A DNA stretch of 49,003 nt. It comes from Myxococcaceae bacterium. Its GTDB lineage: Bacteria > Myxococcota > Myxococcia > Myxococcales > Myxococcaceae. Of this stretch, positions 28,963 through 48,861 are shown piece by piece. Position 1 is the stretch's first letter. Every line of letters starts with the position of its first letter. The position numbers were made by a program, and so were the translations under genes. The notes under the pieces are model-generated. The model was not told the origin of the DNA, did no database searches, and saw only the letters and a program-made list of their open reading frames with translations. The stretch is from assembly GCA_016926755.1 (NCBI GenBank), contig JAFGNZ010000222.1, positions 1 through 49,003 on the forward strand, given 5' to 3'.

Positions 28963-29067
28963 GCCTCGGGCCGAGCCCCGCCTGCCTGCCTGCCCTCGCT
29001 GGGAGCAAAATTCGAAGGCGGGGCCGTGGACCTCTCCCCTCCAGGTAGGGAGAATGTCGGTGCTCCC

Positions 29068-34876: not shown

Positions 34877-36004
34877 ATGGATATCGCTCGCGCTCACCAG
34901 GAGTTCCTGCGCACCCGCATCTTCCCGGGGCTGGACGGGCTGCGCTGTCTGAGCATCGTCCTGGTGGTGGCCTACCACGTCTCCGGCGCGCACACGGGCT
35001 TCCTGGGCCGTGGCTACCTGGGCGTCTCCCTCTTCTTCGCGATCAGCGGCTTCCTCATCACCTCGCTGCTGCTGCGCGAGCGTGAGGCGCACGGGCAGCT
35101 CTCCCTGGCCCGCTTCTACGGCCGGCGCTCCCTGCGCATCTTCCCCCTCTACTACGCGGTGCTGGGCGCGTACGTGGTGCTGGCGACCTTCTTCGAGAAG
35201 GGCGCGCAGGAGAAGGCCGACTTCTTCGCCAACCTCCCGGCCTTCCTCACCTACACCTCCAACTGGTTCGTCCCCCTGGAGGAGAACAAGCGCGTCATCT
35301 TCTACTTCGCCTGGTCCCTGGCCACCGAGGAGCAGTTCTACCTGATGTGGCCCGGCGTGATGCGCCTGTTCCGGCGCTGGGGCGCCCCGCTCTTCATGGC
35401 GGGGCTGCTCGTCGCCTCCCTCTGGGCTCCCTGGGCCAGGGAGACGGGGCGGCTGGACGACTCCCTGCTCTGGGTGCGCATCCTCGCCAGCTTCTCGCCG
35501 CCCATCTGCATGGGCTGCCTGGCGGCGTACGCGCTCCACTCGCCCCAGGCCTTCAAGTGGGTGTACCGCGTGCTCGGCCACACGTGGGTGCCCCTCCTGG
35601 CCCTGGCCCTCGTGCTGCTCGCGGTGGCGACCGACGGCACGCCCTTCTGGCTCACCTCGCTGGTGATGACGGCGCTGGTCGTCTCCTGCTGCCTGCGCAC
35701 CGGGCACGCCCTCATGCCCGTGCTCACGCTCTCGTGGGTCCGCTACGTGGGGATGATCAGCTACGGCATCTACCTGCTGCACATGATCGCCCTGAACCTG
35801 ATGCGCCGCGTGGCGCCGGGGCAGGGCTTCGCCCTCTACTTCCCGCTGACGATGGCGCTGAGCGTGGCGCTGGCGGGCCTGAGCTACCGCTACTTCGAGA
35901 GCCGCTTCCTGCGCCTCAAGGAGCGCCTGGCCGCGGGCCCTGCGCCTGCGGCGGCTTCCCAGGTGGCGCCTTCGCCGGCTCCAGCGTCAAGTCCATCACC
36001 GTGA
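34877..36004 (+). CDS. Membrane acyltransferase, family 3 (OafA/YrhL type)
   Basis: 375 residues with about ten membrane helices. The opening FPGLDGLRCLSIVLVVAYH contains the conserved His of acyltransferase-3 enzymes. GYLGVSLFFAISGFLITSLL and FYGRRSLRIFPLYYAVL are the other two signature blocks. These proteins carry acetyl or other acyl groups across the inner membrane onto sugars, so decoration of the exopolysaccharide is the natural reading from position. The last 23 residues are a Pro/Ala/Ser tail (ASQVAPSPAPASSPSP) encoded where the gene overlaps the 3' end of the GH44 gene on the other strand by 89 bp. Confidence 0.9.
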   Translation: MDIARAHQEFLRTRIFPGLDGLRCLSIVLVVAYHVSGAHTGFLGRGYLGVSLFFAISGFLITSLLLREREAHGQLSLARFYGRRSLRIFPLYYAVLGAYVVLATFFEKGAQEKADFFANLPAFLTYTSNWFVPLEENKRVIFYFAWSLATEEQFYLMWPGVMRLFRRWGAPLFMAGLLVASLWAPWARETGRLDDSLLWVRILASFSPPICMGCLAAYALHSPQAFKWVYRVLGHTWVPLLALALVLLAVATDGTPFWLTSLVMTALVVSCCLRTGHALMPVLTLSWVRYVGMISYGIYLLHMIALNLMRRVAPGQGFALYFPLTMALSVALAGLSYRYFESRFLRLKERLAAGPAPAAASQVAPSPAPASSPSP

Positions 36005-38651
36005 TGGAGTAGGGCGGCAGCCGCGCCTGCAGCGCCCCGGCGCTCACCGCGGCGGCCTGCTGCGGGGAGAAGCCACCCGGCTCGCCCGCGTACGTCATCA
36101 CCCGCGCCTGCTTCAGCTCCCCGCAGCCCTTGAGGTCCACCCGCGCATCCCTCGCGGTGTCCGGCTCCAGGTTGAGGGCAATGGCCACCACGCGCCGGCC
36201 ATCGTTGCTGCGCGAGGTGAACAGGGAGGTGCCCTCCTCGGCGCGCGAGGGCACATAGGTGTCCTGGAAGCGCCCGCCCTGGCCGTCGAAGTTCCGGAAG
36301 GCGCGGAAGGCCCACCACGTGGGGCTGCGCTCCGGCGGGTAGGTGAAGTGGAAGGCCGCCGTGAGGCCGCCCTCGGCGAAGCGGCCCAGCGCCTCGGCCT
36401 GCGCCAGCCCGCCGCTCATGTGCCGCGTGGCGCCGAAGTTGTACTCGCCGATGGCGATGCCCCGCCCCGGGTAGTTGTCCGCCACCATCTTCTTGAGCCG
36501 GGGGATGAGCCGCACCGGCTCGTCGATCCAGGACTCGTCCTTGTAGTTCGGATCCCACAGCGCGCGCGTGGAGCGGATGCGCCGCGCCGCCGTGTCCGGA
36601 TCCGTGCGCCCGCCCTCCTCGAAGCCGATGCCCTCCCCCTGCGGGTAGAAGTGCACGTCCACCACGTCCAGGATGCGCACGCCCGTCTTCTTCTCGTGCT
36701 CGCGCAGCTTGCGCAGGTACCAGGGCAGCAGCGGCACATCCCCGTGCGCCTTCCTATCCGCGTCCGGACTGGCCCCCTTCGCCACGTCCGCCGCCGAGCG
36801 GAAGTAGCCCGTCCAGCCCCACTCCGCCGGCCCGGCGATGACGGCGTCCGGATCCACCTTCCGCACCGCCGTGCCATAGGAGAGGGTGCGCTCCAGCAGC
36901 TCGTCGTACGTGGTGGGCTCCGGGTGCACGTCCCGGTGCGTGGAGCTCCACAGCATGGGCTCGTTGTCGAGGAAGTACAGGTGCACGCTTCGCCCGCGCC
37001 CCACGTCCTTCTCGCGGATGCCGCGCACCCACTCGGCGATGAACTCGGGCGGGGCCGGCTCGCTCGTCTGCGAGGGCGGCAGCGGCGGCAGCATCCGGCC
37101 CGCGCTGGACACGCCATTGCCTGCCTCCGCCAGCTCCGGCGCCACCGCCTGCTGCGCCCCCAGCTTCGACACCGGGAAGCTCACCGAGCGGGTATCCCTG
37201 GCCACCCAGCCGATCAGCGGCAGGGTGAGCGCGGACTGCACCCCATGGGCGCGGTTGGCCATGAGGAACTCGTCGTAGCCGAACTTCGGATCATCCCCGG
37301 GCGCGGTGTTGCGGAAGTACCAGTCGTTGGCCGTGTTCCAGGCGTTGAGCTTCCAGTTGTAGCGGGTGGTGGGGTTGCCGCCCCAGCGGCGCACCGTGGC
37401 CCCCAGCTCCCACTGGTGCATGTCCTTGCGCTCGCGCAGGGCGTTGAAGGCGATGCCGTAGATCAGCGGGCTGATGGAGTGGCCGGGCGCGGCGCAGTCC
37501 ACGGACATGCCCGCGGGCCGGGGAGGCCCCACCGCCACGCGCGCGCCGCCCGCCGCCAGCGCGCCCACCACCGCGGCATCCGTCCCCGTGAGGCCCAGGT
37601 GATCCAGCTGCACCCACTCCGCGCCCACGCGCCGGTACGCCCGCATGACGATGCGATCGAAGGGCTTGAGCTCCGGGTTCAGCTCCGCCAGCGGCACCAG
37701 CACCTGGACCCACTCGTCCTGCCGGCTCACCAGGTGCTGGCTCCCGACGCGCACCCGCGGGAACAGGGTGGCGTCCTCGGAGTCCACCCGCACCTCCAGG
37801 AACTCGCCGTAGTCGCTCGGGGCCTTGTAGCGGAACGCCAGACCGCCGAAGGCCCCCTGCACCGGGTGTGCCCGCTTGAGCGTCCACCCACCCAGCTCGG
37901 CCATCATCACCTTCGCCGTGCCCAGCCCCTCCACCTGGTGCTCCGTCCAGCCGCTCACCTCCCAGCCCGACTTGAGGCCGCCCTCGTACACCACCTCCGC
38001 CAGCGCCAGCGAGGCGCCGGGCCCCTCCGCCTCGGACACCTGCGCCCCGGGCTGCGTCAGCCCGAGCCGATCCAGCTCCACCCACTCCGAGCCCACGCGC
38101 GTGTGGGCCCGGATGATGATGCGCTCGAAGGAGCGCATCTCCGGGTTCAGCTCGGCCATGGGGATGAGCAGCTGCACCCACTCCCCCTCCAGCCCCGCCA
38201 CGTGCCGCGAGCTCACCCGCACCCGCGGGAACAGGGTGGCGTCCTCGGTCTCCAGCCGGACCTCCAGGAAGTCGCCGTAGTCCGGGGCCTTGTAGCGAAA
38301 GGCCAGCGCCCCGAAGGAGCCGCGCAGGGGGCTGGCGTGCTTGAGCGTCCACCCGCCCAGGTCCGCCATCACCAGCTTCGCCGGCCCGGGGCCCTTCACC
38401 TCGCGCTCGGACCAGCCGAGATCCTCCCAGCCCGGCTTGAGGCCGCCCTCGTACACCACCTCCGCGAGCTCCACCGTGATGCTCGCCTTCGAGGTGGAGG
38501 AGCCCGAGGAGGACGCACCGCGCGCCCCACCGCGCTCACAGGCGGCCAGCAGCGCGGCACACACCGCCAGCAAGGCCACCCATGGCCCCTGGTGCCTCGA
38601 CCTGCTCCCGGTCAGGCCCGGCGTGCGGCGCCCTCCGGCCCCGTGTCTCAT
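35916..38651 (-). CDS. epsB: GH44-family glycoside hydrolase lipoprotein (EpsB-like)
   Basis: 911 residues. A long Arg-rich leader and lipobox (LLAAC, Cys38) mark a lipoprotein. Two tandem domains of about 139 residues (61-199 and 217-355) are near copies of each other and look like carbohydrate-binding jelly rolls. Residues 385 to about 880 match GH44 endoglucanases: SISPLIYGIAFN, RWGGNPTTRYNWKLNAWNTA, the acid/base Glu564 in DNEPMLW, VVDVHFYPQGEG, and the nucleophile Glu736 in GEYNFGATRH. It should cut beta-glucan-like chains and may trim or release the exopolysaccharide; the M. xanthus EPS locus also has a glycosyl hydrolase gene, epsB. Start ATG at 38651 overlaps the preceding gene's TGA (ATGA). 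The 3' end overlaps the acyltransferase gene. Confidence 0.88.
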   Translation of the reverse strand: MRHGAGGRRTPGLTGSRSRHQGPWVALLAVCAALLAACERGGARGASSSGSSTSKASITVELAEVVYEGGLKPGWEDLGWSEREVKGPGPAKLVMADLGGWTLKHASPLRGSFGALAFRYKAPDYGDFLEVRLETEDATLFPRVRVSSRHVAGLEGEWVQLLIPMAELNPEMRSFERIIIRAHTRVGSEWVELDRLGLTQPGAQVSEAEGPGASLALAEVVYEGGLKSGWEVSGWTEHQVEGLGTAKVMMAELGGWTLKRAHPVQGAFGGLAFRYKAPSDYGEFLEVRVDSEDATLFPRVRVGSQHLVSRQDEWVQVLVPLAELNPELKPFDRIVMRAYRRVGAEWVQLDHLGLTGTDAAVVGALAAGGARVAVGPPRPAGMSVDCAAPGHSISPLIYGIAFNALRERKDMHQWELGATVRRWGGNPTTRYNWKLNAWNTANDWYFRNTAPGDDPKFGYDEFLMANRAHGVQSALTLPLIGWVARDTRSVSFPVSKLGAQQAVAPELAEAGNGVSSAGRMLPPLPPSQTSEPAPPEFIAEWVRGIREKDVGRGRSVHLYFLDNEPMLWSSTHRDVHPEPTTYDELLERTLSYGTAVRKVDPDAVIAGPAEWGWTGYFRSAADVAKGASPDADRKAHGDVPLLPWYLRKLREHEKKTGVRILDVVDVHFYPQGEGIGFEEGGRTDPDTAARRIRSTRALWDPNYKDESWIDEPVRLIPRLKKMVADNYPGRGIAIGEYNFGATRHMSGGLAQAEALGRFAEGGLTAAFHFTYPPERSPTWWAFRAFRNFDGQGGRFQDTYVPSRAEEGTSLFTSRSNDGRRVVAIALNLEPDTARDARVDLKGCGELKQARVMTYAGEPGGFSPQQAAAVSAGALQARLPPYSITVMDLTLEPAKAPPGKPPQAQGPRPGAP
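37587..38471 (-). repeat. Internal tandem duplication of the putative sugar-binding domain of the GH44 protein
   Basis: The segments 38471-38055 and 38003-37587 (minus strand) encode two copies of one domain: LAEVVYEGGLKPGW / LAEVVYEGGLKSGW at the start, LGGWTLKHASPLRG / LGGWTLKRAHPVQG, EDATLFPRVRVSSRH / EDATLFPRVRVGSQH, and a matching LxxLGLT end. They are also alike at the nucleotide level, pointing to a fairly recent duplication or gene conversion. Confidence 0.8.
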
Positions 38652-39751
38652 GGCTCTCCGCTCGAGTCCTTCCGCGCGCCCTGCCGGGGATCCTCGCCTC
38701 CCCGCGCGGACGACTGCCAGTAACGCTTGAGGCGCCGGGCTACTTCCCGCCACGAGCCCGCCTCCGCCCGTGCCCCGCGCAGGTACTCCATGGTGTAGGC
38801 CACCGAGGTGCTCTTGAAGGCCACCCGCTCGAGCCCCAGCCGATCGGCCAGCCGCGCCGCGCCCATCAGCGCCCCCGTCACCGGCTTCGTCGGCCCGGGC
38901 AGCATCACCGCGGTGGCCAGCAGCGGCCGCGCCAGCGCGTTCATCTCGAACAGCATCCGCCACGGATCCACCTGCGGCACGTCCCAGTGCCGCTCCGACA
39001 GCCGCGAGTCCATCACGCCGTAGCGGTGCGCCCGCGCCAGCCACTTCTCGAAGCTGGTGTGATCCGAGCCGTGCAGCACGTAGGACTCGTTGCAGAAGCG
39101 CACCTGGCAGCCGGCCTTCTCCAGGCGGATGCCCAGCTCGATGTCCTCCGACTGCTTCAGCCCCGGATCGAAGCCGCCCACCGCCACGTAGTCCTCGCGG
39201 CGGAAGGAGACGTTGCCCGTGTAGAGGTTCCAGCCGTGGGCGCCCTCCTGGTGGAGCCGCTGCGCCAGCCGCTCGTGCAGGTACGCGTACCAGCGCTCGA
39301 ACAGCGGCATGTCCGCGAGGGCCGGATCCGGATCGATGCGCCCCAGCACCACGTGGCGCGAGCCCGGCGGGTGCTGCTCCAGGTGCCGCTGGAGGAAGTC
39401 CTCCGGCACCTGCATGTCGTCATCCGTGATGATGACGACGTCCCCGCGCGCCGCCAGCACCCCGCGGTGCCGCGCCGCCGCCGCGCCCGCGTTCTGCTGC
39501 GTCTCCACCCGCAGCGGGTAGGGCAGCGCCTTCGCCAGCGCCTGGAGGGGGCCCTGCACCGGCTCCCTGGAGCCGTCATCCACCACCACCACCTCGTAGT
39601 CGCCGGGGGGCAGCGTCTGTCGGGCGAGCTGCTCGAGGATCCGCGGGAGCAAGGCCAGCCGGTTGTACGTGGCCATCACCACGCTCACCCGGGGGCGCTG
39701 TGCTTCGGTCCGCGGCGGAGCACCTGCGCTCGCCGAGGGCGCATCGCTCAC
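38648..39751 (-). CDS. GT2-family glycosyltransferase
   Basis: 367 residues. GT-A fold of family 2: VSVVMATYNRLALLPRILEQ start, VVVVDDGSRE, the DxD-type metal site in VVIITDDDMQV, VGGFDPGLKQSEDIELGIRL with the ED catalytic pair, and a helical C-terminus without clear membrane helices. It adds one sugar from a nucleotide-sugar donor to the growing lipid-linked repeat unit in the cytoplasm. The start is GTG at 39751, which overlaps the TGA of the upstream gene as GTGA; the ATG of the GH44 gene in turn overlaps this gene's TGA. It corresponds in position and type to one of the M. xanthus Eps glycosyltransferases, but I do not assign a letter. Confidence 0.9.
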   Translation of the reverse strand: MSDAPSASAGAPPRTEAQRPRVSVVMATYNRLALLPRILEQLARQTLPPGDYEVVVVDDGSREPVQGPLQALAKALPYPLRVETQQNAGAAAARHRGVLAARGDVVIITDDDMQVPEDFLQRHLEQHPPGSRHVVLGRIDPDPALADMPLFERWYAYLHERLAQRLHQEGAHGWNLYTGNVSFRREDYVAVGGFDPGLKQSEDIELGIRLEKAGCQVRFCNESYVLHGSDHTSFEKWLARAHRYGVMDSRLSERHWDVPQVDPWRMLFEMNALARPLLATAVMLPGPTKPVTGALMGAARLADRLGLERVAFKSTSVAYTMEYLRGARAEAGSWREVARRLKRYWQSSARGGEDPRQGARKDSSGEP

Positions 39752-40488
39752 TTCTTGCTCCCCACCCGCTGCTGCAGCGTCACGCTGCCCAGGAAGCGCG
39801 CCTTGCCGATCAGCTCCAGCGTGTGCCGCGCCGCGGAGAACTGCGTGGAGCCCAGCGGCACGCACAGCAGCGCGCGCTCGGCGGACAGCGCCACCTCCAC
39901 GCCCACCGGGTTGGAGAGCACCGAGTCGATGCAGACGACGACCATGCCGCCCTGCTCCACGTACGCCTTCATGTCGCGCACGAGCCGCGAGGCCACCCCC
40001 GGGGGCAGGCCCTCCGCGTCAATCAACCGGATGGGCTTCTCGCGGTACTGGCTGCCCACGGCGACGATGGCGCGCGCGGCGTCCATCCCCGAGGCGCCCG
40101 GCTGCGCCGGCACCACCACCAGCGAGGACCACTTCTCCTTCTGGGTGAGCACCGTCCACAGGTGCAGCAGCTCGCGTGGGATCTGCTCCGAGCTGCCCGG
40201 CGCCACCTCATTGTAGACGGGCTCTTCCGGCGCGAGCGGCACCGGCGCGGGCGTGCCCCGCACGACAGACCAGGGACGAGGACGAGCCTGTCCCGGCTTG
40301 GCGCCATTGCCATCGCCACCCCGGGGAGGCCCTCCACCTCCGGAGTTGTCAGTCGGCTCGAACATAGACGGATCCAGTCTACTCATTTTCTGGCCACTGC
40401 CCAGTGGGACACCGCTCGAAGGATCAGACGACTCAACAGAAAGCCGCCGCCGTTCCGCCCGTGCTACACGCGCCCCTTTGCGGCTCAT
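39748..40488 (-). CDS. CpsD/BY-kinase-like P-loop protein with degenerate Walker A
   Basis: 246 residues from the ATG at 40488, which overlaps the wzy TGA (ATGA); a second candidate start (MSRLDPS) is at 40386. After about 100 disordered, Gly/Pro-rich residues comes a CpsD/ParA-type fold: EQIPRELLHLWTVLTQKEKW precedes LVVVPAQPGASGMDAARAIV. This is where Wzc/CpsD kinases have G-x-x-G-x-GK[S/T], but here the lysine and following Ser/Thr are Met-Asp. The A' region IRLIDAEGL and VVVCIDSVL (Walker B-like) are recognisable, and the end lacks a tyrosine cluster. It is therefore probably unable to hydrolyse ATP or autophosphorylate, and may be a regulatory partner of EpsV, which has no kinase domain of its own. 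Inference from position and motifs. Confidence 0.7.
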   Translation of the reverse strand: MSRKGARVARAERRRLSVESSDPSSGVPLGSGQKMSRLDPSMFEPTDNSGGGGPPRGGDGNGAKPGQARPRPWSVVRGTPAPVPLAPEEPVYNEVAPGSSEQIPRELLHLWTVLTQKEKWSSLVVVPAQPGASGMDAARAIVAVGSQYREKPIRLIDAEGLPPGVASRLVRDMKAYVEQGGMVVVCIDSVLSNPVGVEVALSAERALLCVPLGSTQFSAARHTLELIGKARFLGSVTLQQRVGSKK

Positions 40489-42038
40489 GTGCGTGCGCCT
40501 CCCTCTTGCACCGACGCGGGCAGCCCCGCCGGACTCCCCGCGGGCGCCGGGGCTCCCAGTGGCCGCCAGGCGCCCGTACGGATGGCGAGCTTGCCGGCGA
40601 CGGTGACGCCCACGGCCATGAGGATGGTGCCGTACCAGCTGGTGATGCCCATGTCTCCGAAGCACTGGTTGGTGTAGGCGACGACGATGGAGACGACCAC
40701 CAGGCCCGCCGCGCGCCACTCGGGGGGATGGGCGCGGTGGTAGGCGCGCACGGCGAAGAAGATGGTGACCGCTACAAAGAGCCACACGCCTGTAAAGCCC
40801 ACCACCCCACCGAAGGCCAGGTGGCCCAGCACCGAGTTGTGCGGGTGGTAGAGGTAGTCCTCGAAGAGGTGGGAGATGTCCGCCAGCTGCATCACCTCTT
40901 CGAAGCCATGGCCGTAGCCCGTGCCCAGCAGGGGGTTCTTCTGCCAGGTGGTGATGAGGTTGAGGTTCTCCACGTCGCGGTAGTCCATCACGCCGGTGTC
41001 GTTGTGCTCGCCGACGATCATCGACTTGAACGTGTTCACGGGCGAGAAAAAGCCCGTCGGATTGCTCCAGCCCACCAGCACGTAGACGAGGAACACCGGC
41101 GCCAGCGCCAGGCCCGCGCGCGCCGTGTAGCGCTTCACGATGGACCAGGGGCTGATCAGGAAGATGGCGATCAGGCACTGGTTGAGGGTGGCCCACGCCA
41201 GGCGCCGGTCGTTGTAGTGCAGGCCCATGAAGATGATCAGGCCCACCACCGCCAGGCGCCGGAAGTTCTTCCAGGTGGGCTCCTCCCACCACGCGGCGAT
41301 GAGGATGACCATGCCCGTGACGTAGATCATCGTGTCCGAGTGGGTGGTGGCGTACTCGGTGTACAGCCCCCGGGGCCGGGCGATGAAGACGATGAAGAAG
41401 GCGCCCATGAACGACTTGAAGACGGCCGCCGCCACCACGATGCGCCCCAGGATGCGGTGGTCCTCCGGTCCACGGAAGGAGGCGTTGAAGAGCAGCACGA
41501 AGAGCGGCAGCAGCAGCAGCTTCTGGAGCTGCCACTTCGCCGGCCGCCCATCCCCTCCCCGCAGGATGACGCCCCAGATGTACATCCAGGTGATGGCGGC
41601 CAGGATCAGCAGCAGCGACATCACCAGGGGCCGCGGCAGCGGCGTCAGCTGCTCGTCCGTCTTCAGGCCCGCGGCGCGCCGGTAGACGTAGAGCGTGGTG
41701 AAGCCGATCACCGACAAGTCGATCAGCGTGAAGCCCAGGCCGGGCACGCCGGTGAGGGTGTTGAGGTTGATGAAGAAGAGCCGGCCCAGGAAGAGCGTGG
41801 GCGAGTTCCAGTGCCCCGAGTAGGGCACCTCGATGGCGCAGTCCAGCACCAGCAGCAGGGTGAGGACGGTGAGCACGGGGTAGCGGATGGGCACCTTGGC
41901 CAGCACCCACACCAGGGTGGCCGCCACCACGGGCAGCAGCGCCACCGGCGGGAAGAGGACGAGCAGGCCCAGCGTCGCCAGCACCACGACTCCGAGGAGC
42001 GTGAAGAAGATCGGAGTGCGGGAGAGGAAGGCTTCCAT
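40485..42038 (-). CDS. wzy: Wzy-type polysaccharide polymerase (O-antigen ligase-like)
   Basis: 517 residues, about a dozen membrane helices. A Wzy_C/O-antigen-ligase segment is seen at ENLNLITTWQKNPLLGTGYG and, after a periplasmic loop, YHPHNSVLGHLAFGGVVGF. The Pro-Leu-Leu-Gly-x-Gly and His-Asn-x-x-Leu pattern is the family hallmark. The polymerase joins flipped lipid-linked repeat units at the periplasmic face. Located between epsU (32 nt) and the CpsD-like gene (ATGA overlap), in keeping with the one Wzy of the M. xanthus EPS pathway. The C-terminal tail (APAPAGSPAGLPASVQEGG) is disordered. A WaaL-like ligase is the alternative, but the locus context favours Wzy. Confidence 0.85.
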   Translation of the reverse strand: MEAFLSRTPIFFTLLGVVVLATLGLLVLFPPVALLPVVAATLVWVLAKVPIRYPVLTVLTLLLVLDCAIEVPYSGHWNSPTLFLGRLFFINLNTLTGVPGLGFTLIDLSVIGFTTLYVYRRAAGLKTDEQLTPLPRPLVMSLLLILAAITWMYIWGVILRGGDGRPAKWQLQKLLLLPLFVLLFNASFRGPEDHRILGRIVVAAAVFKSFMGAFFIVFIARPRGLYTEYATTHSDTMIYVTGMVILIAAWWEEPTWKNFRRLAVVGLIIFMGLHYNDRRLAWATLNQCLIAIFLISPWSIVKRYTARAGLALAPVFLVYVLVGWSNPTGFFSPVNTFKSMIVGEHNDTGVMDYRDVENLNLITTWQKNPLLGTGYGHGFEEVMQLADISHLFEDYLYHPHNSVLGHLAFGGVVGFTGVWLFVAVTIFFAVRAYHRAHPPEWRAAGLVVVSIVVAYTNQCFGDMGITSWYGTILMAVGVTVAGKLAIRTGAWRPLGAPAPAGSPAGLPASVQEGGART

Positions 42039-42070: not shown

Positions 42071-43264
42071 TCAGGGCTTGCGAGCCTCGCGGGTGGTGCG
42101 CACCCACTCCCCCTTCTTGTCTCGAGGACCGGCCACCATCAGCCACACCTTCCAGGCCACGTAGAAGGGCGCCCACATCAGATCCACCAGCCCGCGCGCG
42201 CCCATGCCCGACACCCACCAGCCGCGCAGCACGTACAGGCCCAGGCTGGCCAGGCAGAACGCCCCCGCGTACACGCTGAGCGCCACCTGCCCCTGCCACA
42301 CGGAGAGCGCGCTCGCCGCCCCCGCCACCGCCACCGCGCCCAGCACCACGTAGCTCAGCGGCGGCACGAGCAGATCCATGGCCAGGTCCAGCAGCACCCC
42401 GTCGCGCTTGCGCAGGGCCTCGCCCAGCAGCGGCAGGCCGAACTGCTTCGTCATCGCCCAGCGCCCGCCCTCCCAGCGGCGGCGCTGCGAGCGGGCGGCC
42501 TTCTCCGAGGAGACCATCTCCCCCAGCACCTCGGCCTCCCACGCGTAGTGCACGCGGTGGCCGGCCCGGCCCAGGCGGATGCCGTACTCCAGATCCTCCA
42601 CGATGGAGAACGCGTCGTGCGGCACCTCGCGGATGACGCGGTGGCTGAAGCACATGCCGTTGCCGCGCAGCCCGCAGGAGACGCCCAGCCGCTCGCGGCC
42701 CAGCGAGCGCACCTTGTGGAACAGCGCCAGGGCGATCGTCATCAGCCGCGTGCGCCACGAGGTGTGCGGGTTCATCACGCCGTAGTGCGCCTGGACGGCG
42801 TGCGCGCCCGCCTCGAGCCTGGCGCCGAAGGAGTGGAGCAGGTGCGGCGACACCTCCGTGTCCGCGTCCACCACCACCACCGCGTCGGCGAACCCGTCCT
42901 TCAGGCTGTGCTCGAAGGCGTGTGCCAGCGCGAAGCCCTTGCCGCGCTTCTCCGTGTCATGGCGCACCAGCACCGTGGCGCCCGCCTCGCGCGCCCGGTC
43001 CGCCGTGGCGTCCGAGCAGTTGTCCGCCACCACCAGGATGCGCCGCAGCGCGCCCGGGTAGTCCATGGCGGACAGGTTCGTCACCGTGCGCGCAATGCCC
43101 GCCTCCTCGTTGTGCGCCGGGACGATGACGTCGAACTTCAGGCGCGGGGCCACCCGGGCCAGCGGCGCCTTGTCCGCCGACAGCAGCGTCAGCAGCAGCA
43201 GGTAGCCGCACGCCACCACCACCGGCAGCGCCAGCACCAGCAGCAGCCCGTCCGCCCACGTCAC
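42071..43264 (-). CDS. epsU: Membrane-associated GT2 glycosyltransferase (EpsU-like)
   Basis: 397 residues. An N-terminal membrane helix (LLLVLALPVVVACGYLLLLT) is followed by a GT2 domain: VIVPAHNEEAGI, VVADNCSDAT, the DAD of VVVDADTEVSP, VEDLEYGIRL and the Q-x-x-RW acceptor motif QRRRWEGGRW. Three or so C-terminal membrane helices follow, the layout of a processive-type or membrane-anchored sugar transferase. The open frame reaches 43390, overlapping epsV, but the GTG at 43264 gives the family N-terminus with GGGGTG upstream, 31 nt after the epsV stop. Neighbours and order (epsV-epsU) match M. xanthus. Confidence 0.88.
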   Translation of the reverse strand: MTWADGLLLVLALPVVVACGYLLLLTLLSADKAPLARVAPRLKFDVIVPAHNEEAGIARTVTNLSAMDYPGALRRILVVADNCSDATADRAREAGATVLVRHDTEKRGKGFALAHAFEHSLKDGFADAVVVVDADTEVSPHLLHSFGARLEAGAHAVQAHYGVMNPHTSWRTRLMTIALALFHKVRSLGRERLGVSCGLRGNGMCFSHRVIREVPHDAFSIVEDLEYGIRLGRAGHRVHYAWEAEVLGEMVSSEKAARSQRRRWEGGRWAMTKQFGLPLLGEALRKRDGVLLDLAMDLLVPPLSYVVLGAVAVAGAASALSVWQGQVALSVYAGAFCLASLGLYVLRGWWVSGMGARGLVDLMWAPFYVAWKVWLMVAGPRDKKGEWVRTTREARKP

Positions 43265-43295
43265 GGCGTCACCCCGGCCCTGGACTCCATGGCGC

Positions 43296-44789
43296 TCACC
43301 CCGAGTTCCGATCCAGCTCCGCCAGCACCGGCACGCCCAGCCCTCGCTCCACCTGCCAGCTCTCCAGCACCCGGCCGCTGAGCACGTCACGCGCCAGCGC
43401 CGCGAAGATGGCCAGCACCAGCCCGCCCACCACCCCGCCGATGGCGATGAGCAGCGGGTTGGGCTTGAGGTGCTTGCGGGGGAACTCCGGCGGCACCAGC
43501 TCCGTGAAGCGGTACTTGAAGGACTGCTCGGCGATCTTCTTCTCCAGCCGCGCCGCGTCCATGCGCTTGAGGATCTGCTGCTGCGTGGCCAGCCGGCTGC
43601 GCAGCCGATCCAGGGACATGGCCGCGCTCGGGTTCTCCGACACGGATGGCAACAGCCCCATCAGCACCCGCTCCAGCCCGTACGGATCCGGCGCCGGCTC
43701 GTCCGGGTAGGGCAGCGCCTTGCCGCCCAGCTCTGAGTACTCGGCCAGCAGCTCCTTCTCCTCGGCCTGCAGCGCCTTCACCTGGGGCGAGCCCTGGCGC
43801 AGCGCCGTCACCCGCGTCTCCATCTCCACCACCACGGGGTGGTCCGGCGCGTACATCTCCCGCTTCTGCGCCAGCTCGTCCTGCATCTCCGTCACGCGCT
43901 GGTTGTGCTGCACCTGCGCGTCCGAGATGGCGCGGCGCTTGGCGCGGATCAAGAACCGCAGCTGCGCCAGCTCCTGGTCCGAGGAGGAGAAGCGCGGCAG
44001 CAGCCGCGGATCCCCCACCACGCGCCGCCGCTCCATCATGATCGCGGAGAACGTCTGCTCGAAGTCGTCGTAGGCCTGGCGGACCTCCTCCGCGGCCTGC
44101 TGCTCGTGCGTGGCCAGGATGGCGATGGCGTCTTCGATGCTGCTCAGCTCCTGCTGCAGGCTGTGCCGCTCGAAGCTGGCCCGCGCCTCGCGCACCAGCT
44201 CGTAGGCCAGCTGGGGATCTCCCCACTGCGCCGCCACGGTCACCTTGCCGTCGCTGGTGTCCACCCAGAGGCGCTTCTCCAGCGTGCCCACCATCCCGTC
44301 CATCCGCGCGTCCTCGTCCGGCGGCGCGGAGATCAGCCGCTGCAGCCAGTCCTTGAAGCGCAGCAGCGGCGGGCGCGTGGCCTCGTGCCGATCCAGCAGG
44401 TTCACCTTCTTCACCAGCGCCACCAGGTTGTCCTGGCGCATCACCGCCTCCGCGGCGGCCTTCGTCTGCGCGTCCACCTCGTTGGCCGGGCGCATGGGGT
44501 TGGGCGGATCCGGGTTGAGGATGTTGGCGCGCTCGGGGTTGACCAGCGCGGCGATGGTGGCCGCGCGCCGGGGCAGCAGCTTCGTCTCCGCCTGCCAGGT
44601 GCGCGGCAGGAACTTGGCCGCCAGCAGCCCCAGCACCGCCGTCACCAGGAAGGTGCCCAGCGCCATCTTCCAGTGGCGACGCACCGCGTTGCGCACGTAG
44701 GTGAAGTAGTCGCGCAGCTGCTCCCAGTCGAACACCTGCGCCTGCTGGCGCTCCACCTCGGGCAGCCGCTCCTCATGAGGTGCGGACAT
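43296..44789 (-). CDS. epsV: Polysaccharide co-polymerase, Wzc/Wzz type without kinase domain (EpsV)
   Basis: 497 residues. Two membrane helices, about 42-62 (MALGTFLVTAVLGLLAA) and about 445-467 (LLIAIGGVVGGLVLAIFAAL), enclose a large periplasmic domain with long coiled-coil stretches (ELAQLRFLIRAKRRAISDAQ, DELAQKREMYAPDHPVVVEM). That is the PCP/Wzz plan. The Pro-rich motif before TM2 (PPEFPRKHLKPNP) is typical. The ~30 residues after TM2 end without a BY-kinase domain. EpsV sets chain length and couples Wzy to the export channel. It overlaps the response-regulator gene by 17 nt. A kinase-like protein with dead Walker A is encoded further down the operon. Confidence 0.92.
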   Translation of the reverse strand: MSAPHEERLPEVERQQAQVFDWEQLRDYFTYVRNAVRRHWKMALGTFLVTAVLGLLAAKFLPRTWQAETKLLPRRAATIAALVNPERANILNPDPPNPMRPANEVDAQTKAAAEAVMRQDNLVALVKKVNLLDRHEATRPPLLRFKDWLQRLISAPPDEDARMDGMVGTLEKRLWVDTSDGKVTVAAQWGDPQLAYELVREARASFERHSLQQELSSIEDAIAILATHEQQAAEEVRQAYDDFEQTFSAIMMERRRVVGDPRLLPRFSSSDQELAQLRFLIRAKRRAISDAQVQHNQRVTEMQDELAQKREMYAPDHPVVVEMETRVTALRQGSPQVKALQAEEKELLAEYSELGGKALPYPDEPAPDPYGLERVLMGLLPSVSENPSAAMSLDRLRSRLATQQQILKRMDAARLEKKIAEQSFKYRFTELVPPEFPRKHLKPNPLLIAIGGVVGGLVLAIFAALARDVLSGRVLESWQVERGLGVPVLAELDRNSG

Positions 44790-45198
44790 CGCTCTTGCCT
44801 CCCGGAGTGGCCTCGGCCGCCCTGGCCAACAGCCGCACCACCTGCTGGATGAACTCTTCCTGAGAGAACGGCTTGGTCAAGTATCCGTCCGCCCCCACCT
44901 CTTCGGCCTGTGCGCGATCCAACAGCGTCCCGCGCGCGCTGATCATCAACACCGGCAGCCCCGCCAGCTCCGGCTGGCCGCGGATGTACTCACACACGTC
45001 GTACCCGGACACGTCCGGCAGCGTCAGGTCCAGGCAGACCAGGTCCGGCCGGAGCTGCGCGAGCTGCTCCAGCGCAGCGCGCCCGTTGGAGGCCTCCAGG
45101 ATGCGCGTGATGCCCCGAGCGTGCAGGAACTCGCCCACCATCTTGCGGAACAGGGGCGAGTCCTCCACCACGAGGACCGTGCATTGCGAGACGTCCAT
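44773..45198 (-). CDS. epsW: Single-domain response regulator (EpsW)
   Basis: 141 residues, one CheY-type receiver: acidic residues Glu12/Asp13 (VVEDSPLF), phospho-acceptor Asp57 (VCLDLTLP), Ser87 (MISARG) and Lys109 (LTKPFSQEEF), all in place, and no output domain. In M. xanthus, EpsW is the orphan regulator of the EPS locus. Here it lies between the small membrane-protein gene (24 nt) and epsV (17-nt overlap). It probably controls export or polymerisation after phosphorylation by a distant kinase; the kinase is not in this window. Confidence 0.92.
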   Translation of the reverse strand: MDVSQCTVLVVEDSPLFRKMVGEFLHARGITRILEASNGRAALEQLAQLRPDLVCLDLTLPDVSGYDVCEYIRGQPELAGLPVLMISARGTLLDRAQAEEVGADGYLTKPFSQEEFIQQVVRLLARAAEATPGGKSDVRTS

Positions 45199-45408: not shown

Positions 45409-46617
45409 TTAAAGCCTACCATTCTCCTGACGGATCACCAATCCGACGCCCATGAACCATTTATAAATGGGCTCGTCGTCGAGCAGAAAGGCGCGGAGCC
45501 TCAAGAGTCGCCCAGACGCCACCACGGCCGAGGTGCGAGTAAGCGGCCACTCCACCTTGGCCGACAGCCGCTCGTCGCCGTCCCGCTGGTGCTGCCCCTG
45601 CGTGATGGCCTGGGCCACGGACACCTCCAGGTTCACCTGGGCCTTGCGCCGGCCCTTCCACTCGAAGCCGAGGCTACCCTCGAGGCGGGGGTAGGGCTCG
45701 GTGCTGTAGACGTCGATGTAGGAGAGGTAGCGCGCCGCGAGCTTCGCCTTCACCGGCCAGTGGTAGCCCACCGGCACGGGGACGCTCAGCGAGGCCTCGC
45801 CGCTGGGGTGCAGGAGGGAGCGGGCGGTCCGCTGGACGGGGTTGAGCTGGAGCTGCTGCTCCCCCACCGTCACCCCCGCCTCCAGCCTGCCGTTGATCAG
45901 CGGGTGGAACTGGTACTGCACCAGGGGGGCGGCGTGCAGCAGCGAGACGCGGGAGTCCGTGGAGAAGTGCACGTCCCGGCCGTACACGTTCAGGCCGCCG
46001 ACGAAGCGGCGGGTGAACGAGTGGAAGGCCTGGGCGCGCAGCTCGGGGCCTCTCTGCGCGGGCGTCACCCGCTGCCCGTCGGGGAGGACGGTGGTGGGCG
46101 GATCCAGCAGGCCGTTGATGATGAGGCCCCCCATGACGCCGATGTACGTGCGCCGCAGGGACGTCACCTCGAGGCCCAGCAGGCTCTCCGAGTAGATGTA
46201 GCGGGTGGTGTTCAGCAGCTTCACGTCCCCGGAGCCGGTGGGCGCGGGGACCCGGAAGTCCTCGAAGGGGAAGGAGCCGTAGGTCAGCGACTCCAGGGCC
46301 CACACCTTGAGGCCGCGGGTGAGCCGATACTCGCCCTGCAGGAAGACGAAGCTGCGCACCTCCACCGTGGGCTCGGTGAAGGCGCGGCCCACGGTGATCT
46401 GCGGCTCGAGGATGGCCTTCAGCTCCATGCGCGGCGTGTAGAGGATGACCTGGCCCCGGGGCGTGATCACCAGATCCTGGATCACCGCGCGGTCCTCGCG
46501 CTCCGTGAGGTTCGGCGTCCGCAGGAAGGTCTCCGCGCGGAGCTGGGACGAGTAGCGCAGCGCCGGCGAGGTCGCCAGCACCATGCTCGTCACCAGGGCG
46601 GGGAGGACCGACACCAT
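45409..46617 (-). CDS. epsX: Outer-membrane beta-barrel for exopolysaccharide export (EpsX/WzpX)
   Basis: 402 residues. A short signal (MVSVLPALVTSMVLATSPA) is followed by a chain of amphipathic beta strands, with alternating hydrophobic residues in segments such as LRYSSQLRAETF, QVILYTPRMELKAILEPQIT and LRAQAFHSFTRRFVGGLNVY, and many aromatic girdle residues. There is no globular domain. In M. xanthus, EpsX (also called WzpX) is a beta-barrel porin needed with the short OPX protein to let EPS cross the outer membrane. Its start lies 4 nt after the epsY stop, so the two are translated together. Confidence 0.85.
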   Translation of the reverse strand: MVSVLPALVTSMVLATSPALRYSSQLRAETFLRTPNLTEREDRAVIQDLVITPRGQVILYTPRMELKAILEPQITVGRAFTEPTVEVRSFVFLQGEYRLTRGLKVWALESLTYGSFPFEDFRVPAPTGSGDVKLLNTTRYIYSESLLGLEVTSLRRTYIGVMGGLIINGLLDPPTTVLPDGQRVTPAQRGPELRAQAFHSFTRRFVGGLNVYGRDVHFSTDSRVSLLHAAPLVQYQFHPLINGRLEAGVTVGEQQLQLNPVQRTARSLLHPSGEASLSVPVPVGYHWPVKAKLAARYLSYIDVYSTEPYPRLEGSLGFEWKGRRKAQVNLEVSVAQAITQGQHQRDGDERLSAKVEWPLTRTSAVVASGRLLRLRAFLLDDEPIYKWFMGVGLVIRQENGRL

Positions 46618-46621
46618 CCGC

Positions 46622-47257
46622 TCACTCCACCACCACGACGTCTCCGGTGCGCAGCAGGAACGAGGCGCCCTTGCCCTCGGTGCGGATGACGTTCTCGTAG
46701 TTGAAGCGGATGCGCAGCGGCGCGGGGCTGTCCGGCTGGCGCCGCAGCACGAAGATGCCGTCCAGCTGGGCGTAGTCCGTGAAGCCGTCCGCCTGCGCCA
46801 GCGCCTGCAGCACGCCGGAGCCGGGCTCCAGCTCCTTCATCCCCGGATCCTTCACCTCGCCCAGCACCGCCACCTCGATCTTCTTGGCCTCCTTCACCAT
46901 CACCGTGACGACGGGGTTGCTCACCATCGGCTTGAGCAGCTCCTCGATGCGGCGGGCGAGCACGGGCGGGGTGAGGCCCGCCGCGTCCACGTCGTTGATC
47001 AGCCGCAGCGTGATGCGCCCGTCCTCGCGCACCAGCGTGTCCGGTGAGTACATCTCGTTCTGGTTCCACACCTGGACGATGAGCCTGTCGCCGCGGCGGA
47101 TGAGGTAGCCCTCCTCCTGCAGCGAGGGCGGCTCTCGGTAGGCGTCCACCCAGATGAAGCGGCCAGGGGTGTAGCAGGCGGCCAGCGCCAGCAGCGCGGC
47201 CGGGAGGAGTCTGCGGAGCCAGGGGGAGGAAGGGAGGTTCGAGCAGCGCATACGCAT
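46622..47257 (-). CDS. epsY: Short OPX polysaccharide-export lipoprotein (EpsY)
   Basis: 211 residues. Lipobox around Cys28 (ALLALAACYTPG). A Poly_export domain (YLIRRGDRLIVQVWNQNEMY, LVREDGRITLRLINDVDAAG) is followed by one SLBB domain (VAVLGEVKDPGMKELEPGSG, VLQALAQADGF). The E. coli Wza-type C-terminal amphipathic helix that forms its own outer-membrane pore is missing, so this is the periplasmic OPX class that depends on a separate barrel, here EpsX just downstream (4 nt). The open frame begins at 47461 within wzx; the start MRMRCSNLPSS at 47257 is 17 nt after the wzx stop. Confidence 0.92.
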   Translation of the reverse strand: MRMRCSNLPSSPWLRRLLPAALLALAACYTPGRFIWVDAYREPPSLQEEGYLIRRGDRLIVQVWNQNEMYSPDTLVREDGRITLRLINDVDAAGLTPPVLARRIEELLKPMVSNPVVTVMVKEAKKIEVAVLGEVKDPGMKELEPGSGVLQALAQADGFTDYAQLDGIFVLRRQPDSPAPLRIRFNYENVIRTEGKGASFLLRTGDVVVVE

Positions 47258-47274
47258 AGGAGATCCGTTCCAGC

Positions 47275-48807
47275 TCATCCGGCCGCGGGGGCCTGGGCCG
47301 GCGCGCCCCGCCGGCGCGCCATGCGCAGCAGGCCTTGCAGCTCGTCCAGGCGCACCGCGCCCGACACGAAGATGAGGAAGAGGTAGAGGCAGGCACCCAC
47401 CACCAGGCGCACGGGGCCCAGGTCCGCCAGCGCCATGTGCACCGCCGTCACCACCGCGCACACCGCCAGCGTCTTCACCAGCCGGGTGATGCTCTGCCGG
47501 TCGAAGGCCCGCCGGCCCACCGCGCTCATCAGGAGGAGGACGGCCAGCGCCTCACAGGTGAGCAGCGACAGCGAGGAGGCGCACGCGCCCCCCATGGGGC
47601 CGAACCGCTCCAGGAAGAGCCGCGGCAGGGTGAGGTTGAACAGCGCGTTGAGCACCATGGTCACCACCGAGGTGCGCGTCACCCACCACCCCTTGCCCAG
47701 CACCGTCAGCACGGCGGCGGCCACCATGGCCACGTACGTCAGCACCAGGATGGGCGCCTGCAGCCGCATCACCACCGCCCCCGGCCGGAACGTCTCCCCG
47801 TACACCAGCGTCATCCACGTCTCCGCGCCCAGCGCCATGGCCAGCATCAGCGGGATGGAGAAGGCGCACACCCCCTCCAGCGCGCGGCGGGAGATGCGGA
47901 AGATCTCCTCCTGCGAGTGGGCCGAGGCGCGCGCCAGCAGCGGCATCATCACCCAGGTGAGCACCGGCGCCGCCATCAGCGTGATGTTCGCCAGGTTCAT
48001 GGCGGAGCCGTACCAGCCCACCTCCGTGGTGTGGGTGAGGAAGCCCAGAAGGAAGATGCCCATGGGGCCGTTGGCCGCCAGCGCCGCCTCGTTCATGAAG
48101 AAGGGCAGCGCCCCCACCAGCGCCGTGCGTGTGCCCCGCACGTCGAGCCGCAGCTCCAGGCCCGCGTGCCGGCGCGCCAGCCGGAAGAGCACCACCGCCC
48201 GCACCAGCTCCGAGGCGAGGATGGGCACGCCCAGCCACGGCAGCGGCAGCCCCAGCCCCAGCACCAGCGCCTGGCCCAGGCCCCACACGCACTTGGTGGC
48301 GATGTTCGCCACCGAGAGGCCGTCCACCCGCTCGCGCGCGTGCAGCACCGCCGCCAGCGTCCCGTTGCACCGGAAGAAGAGCTGGTAGACGCCCAGCAGC
48401 AGCACCAGCACCCGGAGGTGATCCGGCTTGCCGTCCAGGTGCATCAGCCCCTGCATCACCCCCAGCAGCGCCACCGCCAGCAGCACCTGCAGCAGCAGCG
48501 TGCCGCCGAAGAACTCGCTGGCGTGCTCCGGCCGCAGGGCCACCTCCTTGCGGATGTAGACCTCCAGCCCCAGCCCGGCCAGCACGAAGAAGACGGCGGT
48601 GAAGCCCTCGGAGGCCCAGTTGAACTGCCCGAAGCCCTCCGGCCCCAGCATGCGCGGCAGCAGCACCCGCATCATCAGCGCGATGCCGTACGTCACCAGC
48701 AGCGAGCCGCCCAGCTTCACGGCGTTGCGCATGGACGTGGCCATATCCAGCGCCGCGGGCGGGGCCGGGGGAGACGCCGCGCTCGTGTGGGGGGGCTGGG
48801 TGGACAT
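47275..48807 (-). CDS. wzx: Wzx-type polysaccharide flippase
   Basis: 510 residues from the ATG at 48807 (MSTQPPHTSAAS, a disordered leader), with about 14 membrane helices. The beginning MRNAVKLGGSLLVTYGIALM, then the LPRMLGPEGFGQFNWA block, is characteristic of the MATE-like Wzx/RfbX family, with the Gly-x-x-Gly-Phe-Gly turn after TM1. It moves the lipid-linked repeat unit across the inner membrane. It is the first gene of the packed run wzx-epsY-epsX-small ORF-epsW-epsV-epsU-wzy and follows epsZ, the order known from M. xanthus. A TTGACG-based promoter candidate lies just upstream. Confidence 0.93.
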   Translation of the reverse strand: MSTQPPHTSAASPPAPPAALDMATSMRNAVKLGGSLLVTYGIALMMRVLLPRMLGPEGFGQFNWASEGFTAVFFVLAGLGLEVYIRKEVALRPEHASEFFGGTLLLQVLLAVALLGVMQGLMHLDGKPDHLRVLVLLLGVYQLFFRCNGTLAAVLHARERVDGLSVANIATKCVWGLGQALVLGLGLPLPWLGVPILASELVRAVVLFRLARRHAGLELRLDVRGTRTALVGALPFFMNEAALAANGPMGIFLLGFLTHTTEVGWYGSAMNLANITLMAAPVLTWVMMPLLARASAHSQEEIFRISRRALEGVCAFSIPLMLAMALGAETWMTLVYGETFRPGAVVMRLQAPILVLTYVAMVAAAVLTVLGKGWWVTRTSVVTMVLNALFNLTLPRLFLERFGPMGGACASSLSLLTCEALAVLLLMSAVGRRAFDRQSITRLVKTLAVCAVVTAVHMALADLGPVRLVVGACLYLFLIFVSGAVRLDELQGLLRMARRRGAPAQAPAAG

Positions 48808-48832
48808 GGCTCGACGAGGACAGGTGCGGCCC

Positions 48833-48861
48833 AGTGAACGACAGCACCGCACCTACGTCAA
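48833..48861 (-). promoter_or_regulatory. Possible promoter upstream of wzx
   Basis: On the minus strand TTGACG (48861-48856) resembles a sigma-70 -35 box. A 17-bp spacer leads to TTCACT (48838-48833), a poor -10 that keeps only three consensus bases. The predicted start would be about 20 nt before the wzx ATG. Given the 111-bp gap after epsZ, an operon promoter here is plausible but unproven. Confidence 0.3.

Follow-up and report, generated by a model that had tools for sequence, protein, structure and literature searches.

What does a protein with the outline of a BY kinase do in an exopolysaccharide (EPS) gene cluster once the residues for catalysis are gone? The question is raised by a minus-strand gene in a 49,003-nucleotide stretch of DNA from a Myxococcaceae bacterium (GenBank assembly GCA_016926755.1, contig JAFGNZ010000222.1, positions 1 to 49,003), hereafter the window. 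A preliminary description, made from the sequence alone, had seen in it a kinase-dead, CpsD-like partner of the polysaccharide co-polymerase EpsV. Our analysis covers the gene, its missing catalytic residues, the predicted fold, synteny, co-occurrence and purifying selection. The product, an EcpK orthologue, is very probably a docking partner rather than an enzyme, namely a phosphorylation-independent scaffold on the EpsV tail.

The gene and its neighbourhood

The minus-strand frame 40488-39748 encodes 246 aa followed by a stop (Table 1). Its ATG shares the bases ATGA with the stop codon of wzy upstream, and its stop shares GTGA with the GTG at which the glycosyltransferase gene downstream starts, so that the three genes overlap in the manner of an operon. 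All eight sequences compared (the window and its seven closest relatives) keep the ATG at 40488, and a further in-frame ATG lies at 40386. In 7/7 pairs, dN was lower than dS, separately for residues 1–34, 35–104, and 105–246. The shared ATG and the dN < dS in all three regions make the start chosen in the preliminary description plausible and indicate that the gene is under constraint.

Along the minus strand, the cluster runs Wzx, OPX, the EpsX position, a response regulator, EpsV, a glycosyltransferase, Wzy, the ecpK orthologue, a second glycosyltransferase, and a GH44 hydrolase; those names that were assigned by position are presumptive. Pfam searches gave no match for the EpsV-like co-polymerase or for the 402-aa protein, which by its place in the gene order is presumably EpsX. 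The GH44 protein carries two similar N-terminal modules of ~150 aa each (AEVVYEGGLKPGWE... and AEVVYEGGLKSGWE...). Elsewhere in the window, positions 29026-31935 of the plus strand encode a TonB-dependent receptor whose N-terminal part contains TPR and PEGA domains.

Table 1. Features of the EPS cluster in the window, all on the minus strand.
Feature	Position	Strand	Basis or remark
Wzx-type flippase (Polysacc_synt; start approximate)	47275..48852	-	domain match
OPX protein (Poly_export, SLBB), EpsY position (start approximate)	46622..47281	-	Pfam
402-aa protein, EpsX beta-barrel position	45409..46617	-	name presumed from position
Single-domain response regulator, EpsW position	44773..45198	-	name by position only
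epsV-like polysaccharide co-polymerase, 497 aa, without kinase domain	43296..44789	-	
EpsV cytoplasmic tail VLESWQVERGLGVPVLAELDRNSG	43299..43370	-	proposed EcpK docking segment, docking putative
Glycosyltransferase between epsV and wzy (start approximate)	42071..43306	-	Pfam
Wzy-type polymerase (Wzy_C)	40485..42038	-	Pfam; 42% identity to M. xanthus locus
ecpK orthologue, 246-aa BY pseudokinase	39748..40488	-	open frame, M. xanthus AM003 locus identity, BY-kinase fold (predicted)
Degenerate P-loop GASGMD, residues 131-136	40081..40098	-	Lys position is Gly134, Ser/Thr position is Met135
A'-like strand RLIDAE, residues 154-159	40012..40029	-	first Asp kept, DxDxR not
Walker-B-like strand VVVCIDS, residues 183-189	39922..39942	-	Asp188 kept, Pro-Pro lost
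C-terminal tail QQRVGSKK, without Tyr	39751..39774	-	
Family 2 glycosyltransferase, directly downstream of ecpK orthologue	38648..39751	-	Pfam and M. xanthus comparison
GH44 glycoside hydrolase of cluster (start approximate)	35916..38600	-	Pfam and M. xanthus comparison

A predicted BY-kinase fold and the lost catalytic motifs

An AlphaFold2 model of the 212-aa form had a mean pLDDT of 80.3, with ten-residue block means of 89–97 over residues 71–200. Foldseek gave 17 rows at E ≤ 0.001, every one of them a BY-kinase entry (Wzc or Etk). A second structure comparison (VIA rows) placed BY kinases at ranks 1–19 (Z 15.3 to 12.2), the best row having Z 15.3 and an rmsd of 2.4 over 141 aligned residues; the first row of another kind, an SRP GTPase, stood at rank 20 with Z 10.8. 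CapB, Wzc, Etk, VpsO, and BceF were the closest folds; that the protein would have a fold unrelated to CpsD was not what these comparisons showed.

Pfam and NCBIfam searches returned nothing credible for the window protein or for 56 relatives taken one by one, among which a single weak tyrosine-autokinase match appeared (E 0.081), and sequence searches of the PDB did not find a BY kinase. Comparison of a profile of 86 EcpK rows with one of 10 canonical kinases gave a probability of 90.9 with the Walker-B strands aligned, a value that comes from one pairwise profile comparison and not from a database search. Since sequence profiles by themselves lead to no BY-kinase family, the kinship rests on the fold together with this comparison. 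The window protein is thus predicted to have a BY-kinase fold, which bears out the ParA/BY-kinase outline proposed earlier, including its A' and Walker B-like strands.

The catalytic motifs have been lost from this framework. Where the BY kinases of the same genome read AMPGEGKT and SGPQEGKS, the window protein has AQPGASGMD (residues 128–136). Its A' region (LIDAEGL) and Walker-B region (CIDSVL) each retain the first Asp; DxDxR and DxPP are absent. The column of the P-loop Lys holds Ala in 58 of the 86 family rows, Gly in 21, other residues in the remainder, and Lys in none. When the set was extended to 122 rows (the 86 family rows plus 36 rows from 34 loci, three of these in-family, and without the two weak phylum places G147:C285 and G117:C272), Lys was found in 0/116, six rows that do not cover the loop being left out of the count, and Ser/Thr followed in only seven. 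No relative among these 116 had an intact GK[S/T] in register. One row, L163, has a GKS near the loop, which we did not accept as a P-loop because it lies two residues out of register and lacks a preceding [AG]x4; GK[S/T] elsewhere in the frame of seven other rows was likewise not counted. Three positions are near invariant: Trp120 (114/115), Gly228 (122/122), and Gly234 (122/122). After Gly234, the last conserved Gly, no Tyr occurs in any of the 86 family rows, the window included.

As a control, we used 32 canonical BY-kinase loci, mostly fused and Wzc-like, made up of 30 of the best-scoring TIGR01007 places and the two kinases of the window genome. The P-loop was intact in 32/32, and the last 40 residues of these frames contained 2–10 Tyr. 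A Lys that never appears in related rows and is always present in the controls puts the loss of the P-loop beyond chance. The preliminary description was right on both counts, the GASGMD loop without GK[S/T], whose absence holds across relatives, and the missing tyrosine tail. In the window genome, the two canonical kinases (L118 and L119; G000:C32 and G000:C5) have P-loop and tail tyrosines intact; one is fused to a co-polymerase and one stands alone.

Identity with EcpK of Myxococcus xanthus

A contig scan of named genomes with the window protein alone returned no relative; the scan with a Myxococcus alignment returned 12 loci, including one of M. xanthus AM003 (L087). The window protein shares 40% identity over 159 aa with the product of this locus, and the gene that directly follows ecpK there matches its counterpart in the window as well (63% over 350 aa). 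The M. xanthus gene has a TTG and, 14 codons later, an ATG, the spacing described for the EcpK gene (PMC12004946), and the positions of E52, E59, and E131, counted by hand, also fit. Together these agreements identify the window gene as EcpK (formerly MXAN_7447 or WzeX); the window genome gave a single match at E ≤ 10. By sequence and synteny, the window gene is orthologous to ecpK, whose product is a BY pseudokinase coupled to EpsV in the Wzx/Wzy pathway of exopolysaccharide synthesis in myxobacteria.

The core finding, a kinase-dead partner of EpsV, is therefore already known from the 2025 description of EcpK. MXAN_7447 had been proposed as an EpsV partner before it was named as a BY pseudokinase in March 2025 (PMC12004946). 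According to that paper, deletion of ecpK in M. xanthus causes a strong EPS defect resembling that of an epsV or epsZ deletion, EpsV is then no longer detected, and the two proteins stabilize each other and make contact in two-hybrid assays. These experiments agree with what fold, P-loop, tail, and synteny suggest for the window protein as a CpsD/CapB-like partner of EpsV. The window EpsV, said earlier to have no kinase domain of its own, indeed ends 20 residues after its WQ without one. The preliminary description had envisaged regulation of chain length; since the M. xanthus deletion loses both EPS and EpsV, the role of EcpK looks structural rather than one of length control. By analogy, EcpK would play the same role in the species of the window.

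The two EcpK proteins are alike in orthologous sequence, predicted fold, lost motifs, pathway, and downstream glycosyltransferase. They differ in a long N-terminal extension of the window protein and in the residues at the E52/E59/E131 positions. The window cluster is contiguous, with epsV 2.8 kb away, whereas the eps genes of M. xanthus form two clusters 18 genes apart (PMC12004946). A Lys/Arg-rich C-terminal helix is reported for several EcpK orthologues (PMC12004946); the window tail is short (QQRVGSKK), and the model, of low confidence in this part, predicts no such long helix. The stand-alone BY kinases CapB/CpsD and BtkA/ExoD have a similar fold and, like the window protein, are separate partners of a kinase-less co-polymerase, but the window protein lacks GK[S/T], DxDxR, DxPP, and the tyrosine tail. 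HfsB of Caulobacter crescentus, a stand-alone pseudokinase needed by the holdfast co-polymerase HfsA, would by its description work alike (PMC12004946).

EcpK was found in 84/96 genomes of the window's family and in 112 of the 195 sampled across the phylum; EpsV was found in 86/96 family genomes. Both occur in 83 of the 96 and neither in nine, leaving one with EcpK only and three with EpsV only, which are fragmented assemblies (Fisher p 1.6e-9, uncorrected for kinship). The two genes share a contig in 64 of the 83 genomes, 22 bases to 39.6 kb apart, and lie within 5 kb of each other in 33 of these. In one genome (G042), EcpK occurs in a second copy (L031, C1:349175-349705) that shares 70% identity with the window protein, and the single EpsV match lies on another contig.

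The EpsV tail, the scaffold model and its alternatives

EcpK has kept a predicted BY-kinase fold but neither the phosphate-binding Lys/Ser of the P-loop nor the tyrosine tail. In the proposed mechanism, it very probably binds the short cytoplasmic tail of EpsV, which corresponds to the stretch of Wzc just ahead of the kinase domain. Bound EcpK would then stabilize EpsV and support both assembly and disassembly of the EpsV ring without phosphorylation.

The candidate docking segment was compared in 55 EpsV tails, 54 3' ends picked for spread of genera plus the window. In 55/55, WQ followed by V, I, or L stands a few residues ahead of an LxVL-like strand. No WQ was found around the start of the kinase domain in the 32 canonical loci, and the separate co-polymerase beside the stand-alone kinase of the window genome ends ELRERLTLPVLAVVPN. 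The WQ tail may form the core of docking, with assembly cycles presumably driven by the scaffold. The published docking model for M. xanthus features an Arg-Glu hook and three Glu of EcpK, E52, E59, and E131 (PMC12004946); the term 'Trp' is absent from the main text of that paper.

EpsV ends in Arg-Arg in 15 of 49 pairs, and EcpK is acidic at all three Glu positions in 15/15 of these. Among the other 34 pairs, the E131 position is acidic in three, E52 in 11, and E59 in 26. The window pair has Asp, Ala, and Ser at the three positions and an EpsV without the Arg-Arg end, so the Arg-Glu contact cannot be identical in detail; the E59 position stays Glu in 6/7 rows of the window's genus. The published hook looks lineage-restricted. 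We did not take the match of Arg-Arg with acidic residues as proof of coevolution, as the 15 pairs come from three genera and a single ancestral change may underlie them. Two non-matching tails (G037 and G039) carry an internal Arg-Arg, and the E59 position is often acidic in the remaining pairs.

In a single 674-aa frame of one genome (G045), an EpsV-like part that carries WQ is joined through a linker to an EcpK-like part that lacks the P-loop. It lies at L081:852-2873 (G045:C22) on the minus strand, with a stand-alone EcpK gene ~1.9 kb away on the other strand. Its layout is known, since Wzc-like co-polymerases with a fused pseudokinase are cited in other phyla (PMC12004946), whereas the window pair consists of two proteins. 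The best structural matches to a model of the fusion fragment were BY kinases. The EpsV tail, which had no aligned relatives, was left as a low-confidence helix (pLDDT near 50), and the model neither supports nor refutes docking. A joint MAFFT alignment of the fusion with EpsV tails and EcpK rows was misaligned and was left out.

Alternatives to the scaffold differ in what they would have the kinase fold do. An atypical nucleotide-binding switch, which has lost kinase activity and controls EpsV by holding nucleotide through A' and the Walker-B Asp, could draw on the A' Asp kept in 62/86 family rows and the Walker-B Asp in 77/86 (94/122 in the extended set), and the latter does leave some room for nucleotide binding. 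Both Asp residues may be structural, however, and with the P-loop Lys never present and Ser/Thr next to it so rare, we regard such a switch as unlikely. Still less probable is a regulatory subunit that forms mixed rings with an active cellular BY kinase. Two BY kinases of the window genome do exceed the family cut-off, and an inactive/active pairing has been proposed for CapB1/CapB2 (PMC3795738). A TIGR01007 match at E ≤ 1e-20 was present in 83/92 family genomes, but seven of the nine without one (G008, G045, G049, and G084-G087) hold both EcpK and EpsV, the assemblies being drafts of 88–99% completeness in which a gene may be missed in single cases. A laxer TIGR01007 search of these seven found none over the cut-off (best 58.5 bits), and the 12 loci inspected among their 34 listed matches read like ParA/MinD-type proteins. 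EcpK with EpsV in the absence of a BY-kinase match argues against a kinase heteromer, as does the wild-type EPS reported without BtkA (PMC12004946).

That the gene is a decaying kinase without function is hardly credible. Its catalytic motifs are gone, but the dN < dS in every pair, the retention of the gene across most family genomes, the near-invariant Trp120, Gly228, and Gly234, and the strong EPS defect of the M. xanthus deletion (PMC12004946) all stand against decay. The phosphorylation-independent scaffold thus preferred would, in another myxobacterium, confirm that polysaccharide export can retain a kinase fold for its use in assembly and not for catalysis. To the published model the survey adds a possible docking core in the WQ tail of EpsV, genomes in which the pair occurs but no BY kinase is detected, and a fusion found in nature. 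In a broader reading, to which we give about an even chance, EcpK and EpsV would be an ancient docking module that needs no phosphorylation and extends across the phylum Myxococcota; at its core, the conserved WQ(V/I/L)...LxVL tail of EpsV would contact the EcpK domain. The M. xanthus Arg-Glu hook, absent in the window pair, would then be a later addition in a single lineage, and the module would run without any BY kinase and have been fused at least once.

In a further EpsV-like tail (L153, G051:C486), the WQ module occurs twice in tandem (RWQLERGLGLPIL and SWQLEKKLSLPLL), which looks like a duplication of the proposed docking segment.
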